A stretch of 64,000 nt of DNA from Selenomonas ruminantium AC2024 (GTDB taxonomy: Bacteria > Bacillota > Negativicutes > Selenomonadales > Selenomonadaceae): positions 868,001-932,000 of the forward strand of contig NZ_JIAC01000001.1 in assembly GCF_000687995.1 (NCBI RefSeq), written 5' to 3'. Below the pieces are notes generated by a model, which saw only the letters and a program-made list of their open reading frames with translations, was not told the origin of the DNA and ran no database searches. Both the position numbers and the translations under genes were made by a program. Shown piece by piece: positions 3,538 through 5,687 of this stretch. How positions within the stretch are numbered: the stretch's first letter is position 1; each line of letters begins with the position of its first letter.

Positions 3538-3918
3538 TTAGGCACTGATGCTTCCGGTTGTTTCTCCGGGAATATCCCGGATGGCATCATCACCGTGCTG
3601 ACCGGTGCGGATGCGGACGGCGTCCTTGAGCTCGGTGACGAAAATCTTGCCGTCACCGAACTGGCCGGTGCGCAGTACCCGTTCGCAGGTGTCGAGCACC
3701 TTGTCCACGGGAATTTCGGAAACCACGGTTTCCACTTTGATTTTGGGCACCAGCTTTACATCGTATTTTTTCCCGCGGTAAACTTCCTGATGACCTTTGG
3801 ACAGGCCACAGCCGAAAACCTGACTTACGGTGATGCCCATGACCCCGATTTTGTTCAGGGCGCGGAGCAGGTCATCGAGTTTGGTGGAACGGGTGATGAT
3901 TTCGATTTTTGTCAGCAT
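3538..3918 (-). CDS. glnB: PII nitrogen regulatory protein
   Basis: This is a 126-residue PII signal protein, the usual size. It has the N-terminal strand MLTKIEIITRSTKLDDLLRAL and a T-loop with GHQEVYRGKKYDVKLVPK, which includes the tyrosine equivalent to the uridylylation site. The C-terminal part has DGKIFV and a TG(E)-type ending. PII trimers sense 2-oxoglutarate and ATP/ADP and block AmtB when nitrogen is plentiful. The ATG at 3918 has AAAGG 9 bases upstream; the in-frame ATG at 3927 would sit on the ribosome site itself. It follows amtB by five bases, so the pair is cotranscribed. Being linked to amtB, it is functionally GlnK-like. Confidence 0.95.
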   Translation of the reverse strand: MLTKIEIITRSTKLDDLLRALNKIGVMGITVSQVFGCGLSKGHQEVYRGKKYDVKLVPKIKVETVVSEIPVDKVLDTCERVLRTGQFGDGKIFVTELKDAVRIRTGQHGDDAIRDIPGETTGSISA

Positions 3919-3923
3919 GGCAA

Positions 3924-5234
3924 TCATCCTTTCTCCATATTCATCTGCATTACCGTGTTGGCCAGCATTTCGCTGGAAGTCTCAAAGGAACCGAGGAGCG
4001 GGCTGGAGGTCAGCACGCCGCGGGTGTAACCGCGCTCGCCATGTTCGATGATATCGAGGCCCGTAAGTTCCTCCGCTTCGTCAGCGCGGGTTTCCATAAA
4101 GGCATGGACCAGCTGATAGAGCACGAAGGAACCGGCAACGGCCAAAGCGTAAGCCACTACGATGGAGATGAGCTGAGCGACGAACAGATGGGTGTCACCG
4201 TAGAAGAGGCCGTTGGCACCATCGGGGTTGACTTCCGTGGTGGCCCAGAGGCCGGTAGCGATAGCACCCCAGGTGCCGCCGATGCCATGAACGCCGAAGG
4301 CATCAAGAGAGTCATCATAACCAAGTTTTTCCTTGAGGACAGCTACGGCGAAGTAGCAGACCACGCCGCCGATGAGACCGATGATTACCGCAGGCATGGG
4401 AGCCACGAAGCCGGCAGCCGGAGTGATGGCTACAAGGCCGGCGATGGAGCCGGAGACGGCACCCAGAATGGTGGGCTTGCCATTGTGTTTCCATTCCACC
4501 AGCACCCAGGAAACAGCGGCAGCAGCTGCTGCTGCCTGGCTGGTGATGAAGGCGTTGGCGGCCAGAGCGTTGGCGCCAAGGGCGCTGCCAGCGTTAAAAC
4601 CGAACCAGCCGAACCAGAGGAGAGTTGCACCAAGAACCGTCATGGGAAGATTATGAGGGAGCATAGCCGTGTGCTGATAGCCGTGACGTTTGCCCAACAG
4701 CAGGCAGATGGTCAGGCCGGACACACCGGAGAGAATATGGATAACGAGGCCGCCGGCAAAGTCCAGGGCACCCAGCTCAGCCAGGAAGCCACCGCCCCAT
4801 ACCCAATGAGCCATGGGGTTATAGATGAAGATAGCCCAGAGGAGGATAAAGACGGTAAAAGCAGCAAATTTCATGCGTTCGGCAAAAGCTCCGGTGATAA
4901 GAGCCGGTGTCAGAGCCGCAAACATGCACTGGAAGGCTACGAAGGCCAGTTCCGGGATGGTGCTGCCTTCCAACACCTGCAGGCCCACACCTGCAAGACC
5001 TAATTTATCCAGGCTGCCGATAAAGCCGTTGACATCCGGACCAAAGGCCATGGTGTAACCGACAACAATAAACTCTACCGAAATAAGAGCCAAAACAAAG
5101 AAACTCTGCATAATGGTGGTTAAAACATTTTTGCTCCGCACCATGCCGCCGTAGAAGAACGCAAGGCCGGGTGTCATTATGAAGACCAGGGCGGCGCTGA
5201 TGAGTACCCAGGCCGTATTGCCAGTATCAATCAT
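3924..5234 (-). CDS. amtB: Ammonium transporter
   Basis: The protein has 436 residues and the Amt/MEP/Rh pattern of eleven membrane helices. Visible marks are TPGLAFFYGGMVRSKNVL near the N-terminus, the conserved pore segment with HMLSG-like HILSGVSG, GWFGFNAGSAL, and the late GVHGIGGTWGAIATG carrying the second pore histidine. It carries NH3/NH4+ across the cytoplasmic membrane. The start at 5234 is preferred because GGAAAGG lies 9 bases upstream, the same spacing as in glnB; the ATG at 5252 overlaps that site. Transcription starts from a consensus promoter at 5412-5440 and passes through a structured leader (5274-5401). Confidence 0.95.
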   Translation of the reverse strand: MIDTGNTAWVLISAALVFIMTPGLAFFYGGMVRSKNVLTTIMQSFFVLALISVEFIVVGYTMAFGPDVNGFIGSLDKLGLAGVGLQVLEGSTIPELAFVAFQCMFAALTPALITGAFAERMKFAAFTVFILLWAIFIYNPMAHWVWGGGFLAELGALDFAGGLVIHILSGVSGLTICLLLGKRHGYQHTAMLPHNLPMTVLGATLLWFGWFGFNAGSALGANALAANAFITSQAAAAAAAVSWVLVEWKHNGKPTILGAVSGSIAGLVAITPAAGFVAPMPAVIIGLIGGVVCYFAVAVLKEKLGYDDSLDAFGVHGIGGTWGAIATGLWATTEVNPDGANGLFYGDTHLFVAQLISIVVAYALAVAGSFVLYQLVHAFMETRADEAEELTGLDIIEHGERGYTRGVLTSSPLLGSFETSSEMLANTVMQMNMEKG

Positions 5235-5273
5235 CACAATCATCCTTTCCATGGTAATGAATCAATAAGTCCC

Positions 5274-5401
5274 GCAAACAGGAAAAGCGCCCATAGCGCA
5301 GAAATCTTGCACTACGGACGCCTTTGTCCCCAAACGCAATGAACGCAAAAATCCCCAAGTGTCCGGTACCTGACACTTGGGGACGTCGTTGTCCTGTTTG
5401 C
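5274..5401 (-). ncRNA. Structured 5' leader of amtB-glnB (candidate riboregulator)
   Basis: Read on the minus strand, the leader is closed by a 10-bp stem (GCAAACAGGA at 5401-5392 with TCCTGTTTGC at 5283-5274). Inside are two hairpins. P2 (5382-5353) is an 11-bp stem with an 8-base loop, followed by ATTTTT, and looks like an intrinsic terminator. P3 (5321-5287) is about 14 bp including G-U pairs. The unpaired GTCCCCAA (5384-5377) of P2 is also perfectly complementary to TTGGGGAC at 5333-5326, so P2 can be replaced by an alternative pairing. I do not recognise it as a named riboswitch class. Confidence 0.65.
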
Positions 5402-5411
5402 TTATGAGGTC

Positions 5412-5440
5412 ATTATAAAATGGAAAATTTGACATGTCAA
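5412..5440 (-). promoter_or_regulatory. Consensus promoter of amtB-glnB with palindromic -35
   Basis: On the minus strand, TTGACA (5440-5435) and TATAAT (5417-5412) are separated by exactly 17 bases, a full sigma-70 consensus. The -35 lies within the 12-bp palindrome TTGACATGTCAA (5429-5440), which could be an operator. Predicted start is near 5405, right at the first base of the structured leader. Confidence 0.8.
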
Positions 5441-5502
5441 GGTGTAAAGTTATGTATACAAGAATGTAATAAAAATCACAAGCATGATTTCCTAAAATAG
5501 TG

Positions 5503-5508: not shown

Positions 5509-5547
5509 ATCCAATAAGAGCAAACGAATATAACTCCGAGCAAAAAT

Positions 5548-5651
5548 ATCTAAGGCCTGTGGCTATGATATTGCGCCGGGGCCCTGTTGGAAACGGCAGG
5601 ACCTTCCATTTTGAAAAGGGGTATCCATTTTAGTATCTGGCATTAGGCGAG
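5548..5651 (+). ncRNA. Moco-riboswitch-like aptamer
   Basis: The leader of the molybdenum cofactor operon holds a compact set of pairings: CCTG/CAGG around GTTGGAAACG, a GGACCTTCC segment, and the run GGCATTAGGCGAGG. These resemble, from memory, the conserved core of the Moco RNA motif (a Mo/W-cofactor-sensing leader). It is followed directly by an intrinsic terminator, so control would be by premature termination. The assignment rests on motif likeness and gene context and was not tested with a covariance model. Confidence 0.6.
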
Positions 5652-5687
5652 GACTATCCTTTTCGTATGGAGAGGATAGTCTTTTTT
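5652..5687 (+). terminator. Attenuator terminator of the Moco operon leader
   Basis: GACTATCC and GGATAGTC form a hairpin followed by six T, located between the aptamer and the first start codon at 5710. This is the likely expression platform of the riboswitch. Confidence 0.85.

Follow-up and report, generated by a model that had tools for sequence, protein, structure and literature searches.

The two hairpins in the amtB-glnB leader of Selenomonas ruminantium AC2024 suggest that this RNA is very probably controlled by an ANTAR-domain antitermination protein acting on two attenuators in series. This reading is based on hexaloop hairpins that overlap terminators, their conservation in relatives, a three-way pairing between hexaloop and terminator strands, an ANTAR gene in the genome, the joint absence of gene and hairpins in a related genus, and the occurrence of similar modules at other nitrogen-related operons. 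The leader lies on the minus strand of the 64,000-nucleotide stretch of contig NZ_JIAC01000001.1 that was analysed (the window), and all positions refer to it (Table 1). The original prediction from the sequence had described an unclassified RNA at a nitrogen operon, built like a riboswitch or an attenuator under protein control. The leader can be classified through its ANTAR-type hexaloops, and comparison with relatives supports the protein-controlled attenuator well but not the metabolite riboswitch.

Table 1. Features of the amtB-glnB leader region, all on the minus strand
Feature	Positions in the window	Remarks
Promoter TTGACA-17-TATAAT	5412..5440 (-)	12/12 consensus match
Closing stem, 5' strand GCAAACAGGA	5392..5401 (-)	Overlaps 5' strand of hexaloop 1
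Hexaloop hairpin 1, GGAC-AACGAC-GUCC (A1, G4)	5381..5394 (-)	Candidate antiterminator for T1
Intrinsic terminator T1 and U run	5347..5384 (-)	GUCC common to T1 and hexaloop 1
Hexaloop hairpin 2, GGAC-AAAGGC-GUCC (A1, G4)	5316..5329 (-)	Candidate antiterminator for T2
Intrinsic terminator T2 and UUUU	5283..5323 (-)	5' arm overlaps hexaloop 2
Closing stem, 3' strand UCCUGUUUGC (TCCTGTTTGC)	5274..5283 (-)	Pairs with 5392..5401
amtB, ammonium transporter	3924..5252 (-)	PF00909, E 2.3e-128; TIGR00836 over cut-off
glnB, PII nitrogen regulatory protein	3538..3927 (-)	PF00543, E 3.1e-26

Most of the structural elements named in the original prediction are present in the leader. The consensus promoter is a perfect match, and with TTGACA at 5440 and TATAAT ending at 5412 the RNA is predicted to start near 5405 (-). 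The same 12/12 match is found in 31 of the 45 leaders scored (relatives and this one), and the remainder have 9-11 matches. The 10-bp closing stem exists as described, as does the terminator-like hairpin (5384-5351, minus strand), which has a T run after it. The second long hairpin, given as 14 bp, has 15 bp in the fold, at about 5322-5286, and ends in TTTT. What had been missed is that both hairpins are terminators and that each overlaps an A1/G4 hexaloop mini-hairpin, whose six-base loop with A first and G fourth is the element that ANTAR antitermination proteins recognise. The minus strand of the leader folds at -69.2 kcal/mol, whereas shuffled sequences average -43.0 (z -6.5) and none of 200 was as low. 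The start of amtB may be at 5234, where by eye the relatives start.

An Rfam scan gave no family at gathering threshold on the leader, riboswitch families included; the described class that it matches, the ANTAR hexaloops, lies outside the Rfam library. The only nearby cis-regulatory match, at 64.7 bits, is to the molybdenum cofactor riboswitch family RF01055 and lies on the opposite strand at 5522-5637 (+), with a terminator-like hairpin beyond it at 5649-5684 and then, by eye, moeA/moaA-type genes. A GHKL-type sensor kinase gene (PF14501, 2115-3461, plus strand) converges on glnB. The palindrome TGTATACA (5453-5460, minus strand) precedes the -35 box by about 20 nt and is found in 28 of 45 amtB leaders scored, and a GTATACA site also precedes glnA. 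This is perhaps a transcription-factor site; a genome search for a shared set of GTATACA promoters gave 11 sites (3 in the control) and no clear regulon. The loop of T1 contains the self-complementary six-mer GGUACC (region 5362-5371, minus strand), and within the family 26 of 29 leaders have it.

Long, near-perfect inverted repeats are also a property of mobile or repeated palindromes of the REP or MITE type, which would have no regulatory role. No dispersed repeat was found: apart from the leader and its self-match as a palindrome, matches elsewhere in the genome are no longer than 19-26 bases. The single copy, together with the same structure type before amtB across the class, rules this explanation out, and its probability is negligible.

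The strand 3' of each loop can pair either with the strand before the loop or with the 3' arm of the terminator. Among modules with a scored terminator, the three shared letters beside the loop pair both ways in 36 of 42 cases for hexaloop 1 and 24 of 27 for hexaloop 2, as well as in 18 of 19 modules before glnA and 18 of 18 before genes for Na_Ala_symp symporters. At the second pair of the hexaloop 1 stem the three partners vary jointly, being A-U-A in 11 of 42 and G-C-G in 30 of 42. Two-sided changes in 54 distinct hexaloop windows fill 58 cells, compared with 28.0 in shuffles (0/500 reached this value) and no more than 13 with the partner shifted along the alignment; two of the five pair-count measures, pairs with a double change (399/500) and further pair types (491/500), are not above shuffles. 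Each hexaloop alone is worth -4.0 kcal/mol, while T1 has -21.9 and T2 -25.1, and forcing both hexaloops costs about 16 kcal/mol. With hexaloops so weak next to the terminators, the switch is expected to be off by default, and a further factor would be needed to keep the hexaloops folded.

A different switch had been proposed originally, in which an 8-base alternative pairing would break the terminator-like hairpin. The pairing of GTCCCCAA with TTGGGGAC is present, but among the 40 leaders with two hexaloops it is found only in this one and its nearest relative (G000 and G156). Nine of the others share just GUCC/GGAC at the site, one shares three bases, and 28 share one base. It was therefore rejected as an antiterminator.

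The hexaloops and their terminators are conserved upstream of amtB in relatives. Loss of the paired segments in relatives, which had been named as grounds for abandoning the original prediction, was tested for, and the structures proved to be present. An amtB-like gene (E 1e-60) is found in 54 of 60 relatives. From the best-matching amtB genes 49 were taken (29 loci and 20 stretches, with more distant Amt paralogues left out), and they gave 48 leaders after one cut by a contig end (G155) was dropped. The script counted as a module any A1/G4 hexaloop hairpin that has a stem of 3 bp or longer, including at least two GC pairs, and whose 3' side begins a terminator. Two or more modules were found in 33 of the 48 leaders, at least one of which (G169) was counted through a spurious second hairpin, while 13 leaders have one and 2 have none. 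One of the zeros (G197a) arose because its modules lie outside the 300-nt stretch used, and a separate pattern gives both of its hexaloops. Among 960 dinucleotide shuffles none had two modules, 34 had one and 926 had none, a comparison that overstates significance because the 48 leaders are related and are not independent trials.

The separate pattern was applied to 47 leaders, excluding G155 and the ANTAR-less G092, and found two hexaloops in 40 and one in 7. By design this pattern accepts only loops closed by a C-G pair that have G4 and either A or G in the first position; among the loops it finds, A1 is present in 44 of 45 for hexaloop 1 and 41 of 42 for hexaloop 2. In some leaders (for example G161, G023 and G211) no terminator was scored on one of the two hexaloops. 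The hexaloops are 53 nt apart in this leader and 32-121 nt apart in relatives, and between the predicted start and hexaloop 1 no other A1/G4 hairpin was found in any of the 47 leaders. The preferred loops differ, being AAUGAA/C for hexaloop 1 and AAAGGC/AAUGGC for hexaloop 2.

Across the class the common part is the two hexaloops with their terminators, while the arm sequences, the spacer and the closing stem vary. In the clade of S. ruminantium AC2024 the helix after T2 has a single invariant core (GCAAACAG/CTGTTTGC), so the closing stem shows no covariation there. In other lineages, differing sequences pair with the stretch after T1. Closing helices with a score of at least 8 are found after T1 in 9 of 40 leaders (control 1.65) and after T2 in 11 of 40 (control 0.85). 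One guess is that the closing stem draws the hexaloops together.

The conserved part also bears on the idea of a new class of metabolite riboswitch, sensing glutamine, ammonium, 2-oxoglutarate or a nucleotide. A long structured leader with a closing stem before amtB-glnB, and the lack of an Rfam match, would suit such an RNA. However, what is conserved is hexaloops and terminators rather than the more variable elements around them, and the modules are absent from a genus with no ANTAR gene over the cut-off, making a riboswitch very improbable. That genus (g11) belongs to the same family. None of its 66 genomes has an ANTAR gene over the Pfam cut-off (there are five weak partial matches), 34 of the 66 have amtB at E 1e-150, and no modules were found in the 30 amtB leaders fetched. 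One of its members (G092) retains the TTGACA-17-TATAAT promoter with a short leader.

The genome of S. ruminantium AC2024 encodes a single ANTAR protein, a response regulator of 199 amino acids with receiver and ANTAR domains (REC-ANTAR). Its gene directly follows that of a 494-amino acid kinase with GAF_PdtaS, HisKA_2 and HATPase domains. The regulator aligns with Rv1626 (1s8n, E 4.8e-58) and EutV (6wsh, E 1.9e-46). It keeps the EutV phosphorylation site D54 and, among the RNA-contact residues of EutV as PMC8934654 names them, R142, K143, Y164 and M172; K147 is replaced by R. An ANTAR gene was found in 57 of 60 relatives, over the cut-off in 56. One genome (G206), which is 87% complete, has both hexaloops and no ANTAR match.

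Similar modules are found at other operons of the same genome, forming a candidate regulon. Pattern searches and terminator checks left four operons: amtB-glnB, with two modules; an SSF symporter gene preceded by one for a 149-amino acid protein that matches no Pfam family, also with two; the gene for a Na_Ala_symp (Na+/alanine-type) symporter, with one; and the glutamine synthetase gene glnA, with one. The first pattern, RGRCAANGRNGYCY, gave 29 matches (12 in the reversed control), six of them with a scored overlapping terminator. Two of these (L117 and L128) were judged by eye to be coding sequence and discarded, so that two sites at amtB and one each at the SSF operon and the Na_Ala_symp gene remained. 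A relaxed pattern, GGCAANGRNGCC, gave 62 matches (control 23), with terminators checked by script in 57 and the other five already covered. Its new finds were the glutamine synthetase leader and the first of the SSF modules, and four of its candidates (L215, L218, L222 and L226) were likewise set aside by eye as coding sequence.

Throughout the genus, the glnA and Na_Ala_symp genes have a single hexaloop before a single terminator. The hexaloop is present in all 20 glnA leaders fetched, 19 of which have a scored terminator, and in 18 of 21 Na_Ala_symp leaders; the script added a weak second one in a single glnA leader (G145). An extra A1/G4 hairpin precedes the first hexaloop in 5 of 20 glnA leaders and 2 of 18 Na_Ala_symp leaders, with three pairs and no GC pair; the promoter call failed for one glnA leader (G157) in this count.

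The spaced arrangement extends beyond the genus. A pattern for two spaced hexaloops gave 38 matches in 36 of 380 genomes of the class Negativicutes (4 in the reversed control), which is an undercount since it does not match this genome or genus. From these matches 30 loci were fetched, of which 24 have two scored terminators, 2 have one and 4 have none. A scan of a species-level genome collection, run without a shuffled control, gave 70 stretches; two modules were scored in 28 of them, a single one in 19 and none in 23. The 28 include Pelosinus, Sporomusa, three Treponema records and seven Nitrospira-type records, in which the first terminator is doubtful by eye. The following gene assignments were also made by eye. 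Three Treponema loci (L260, L264 and L296) have two hexaloop-terminator modules before a glutamine-synthetase-like gene, which in L296 is followed by an Amt-like gene. Spaced A1/G4 hexaloops precede a FocA/NirC-like transporter gene in three Nitrospira-type loci (L273, L298 and L309), and they precede amt in two Omnitrophota loci (L280 and L302), with glnB as well in L280.

The leader resembles known ANTAR targets in its parts but not in its layout. The E. faecalis eut leaders with EutV, K. oxytoca nasF with NasR and P. aeruginosa amiE with AmiR are dual-hexaloop antiterminators (Ramesh 2012, PMC3369931). Like them, the amtB leader has mini-hairpins with stems of at least 3 bp and A1 and G4 in a six-base loop, whose 3' strand is common to an intrinsic terminator; it has a REC-ANTAR regulator and kinase in the same genome, and it precedes nitrogen genes. 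The glnA hexaloop, GGCAAUGGAGCC, resembles the 13-nt eut motif AGCAANGRRGCUY (PMC3369931). In the eut leaders, however, two A1/G4 hairpins are joined by a linker of 5-12 nt, only the second overlaps the one terminator, and both are needed in cells (PMC3369931), while in the amtB leader each hexaloop has its own terminator. The working therefore appears ANTAR-like, but the strict dual-hexaloop definition, with a short linker and one terminator, does not apply. The original prediction missed two conserved hexaloops in finding no ANTAR match, although it was right that the closely spaced layout does not fit. Published predictions place ANTAR sites upstream of genes for PII and ammonium transporters, and give Desulfotomaculum acetoxidans a regulon of 13 sites (PMC3369931). 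Those sites share target gene types with the amtB leader, as well as several attenuators per transcription unit, but unlike it they came from a dual-hairpin model. No paper describing Negativicutes amtB leaders was found in the literature searched, which took in few subscription journals. The main text of Ramesh 2012 does not mention Veillonella or Selenomonas, and its supplementary tables may list such leaders.

The leader could also be an ordinary dual-hexaloop site, where hexaloop 1 recruits the protein and passes it to hexaloop 2, T1 is an insertion, and the closing stem draws both hexaloops together. The different preferred loops, as if for distinct roles, and the excess of closing helices over control agree with this, as do some Nitrospira and Omnitrophota leaders in which by eye the first of two spaced hexaloops seemingly lacks a good terminator. 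Against it are the terminator overlapped by each hexaloop, a spacing far from the 5-12 nt of eut and from the 2-25 nt allowed in a survey of actinobacteria (PMC8164766), and the single-hexaloop, single-terminator leaders of glnA and Na_Ala_symp genes. We consider a dual site unlikely, though the most serious of the alternatives. With a separate hexaloop at every terminator, a single one is probably sufficient for each terminator in this group.

A mechanism can be proposed for control by two ANTAR attenuators in series. By default T1 would fold and stop transcription, and polymerases that escape would meet T2. The partner kinase would phosphorylate the sole ANTAR response regulator, presumably when good nitrogen sources are short. 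The activated regulator would bind hexaloop 1 as it emerges from the polymerase and hold the GGAC-GUCC pairing, so that the lowest part of the 5' arm would be missing from T1, and the T1 hairpin would no longer abut the U run. The same step at hexaloop 2 and T2 would allow transcription of amtB-glnB and turn on ammonium uptake. We infer from the sequences that the protein binds the hexaloops and that termination occurs in cells, and two gates in series would be expected to lower leakage.

These leaders bear on how many hexaloops an ANTAR protein needs. According to published work EutV requires two close hexaloops: lengthening the linker by 20 nt abolished antitermination, and the assay needed a hexaloop pair at short spacing. 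The same work found that its dimer engages only one hexaloop at once and that P1 or P2 is bound in isolation (Walshe 2022, PMC8934654; PMC3369931). For EutV a single hexaloop is the minimal motif while antitermination still needs the pair; terminators with a single hexaloop seem to be the usual arrangement in the genomes analysed here. The eut requirement for both hexaloops and a short linker does not predict the amtB layout (PMC3369931, PMC8934654). Walshe 2022 asks how widely single-hexaloop sites are used (PMC8934654), and the question becomes directly testable with leaders in which each terminator has its own hexaloop, kept at glnA in the genus and placed in series at amtB in the class. 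On balance we favour the view that ANTAR acts here through a single hexaloop per terminator, that amtB stacks two such units for tighter control, that the eut dual rule is a special case, and that the serial design is found in more than one phylum, including that of Treponema. Overall the results suggest that in Negativicutes one regulator controls a small nitrogen regulon of ammonium uptake, PII, glutamine synthetase and two symporters.
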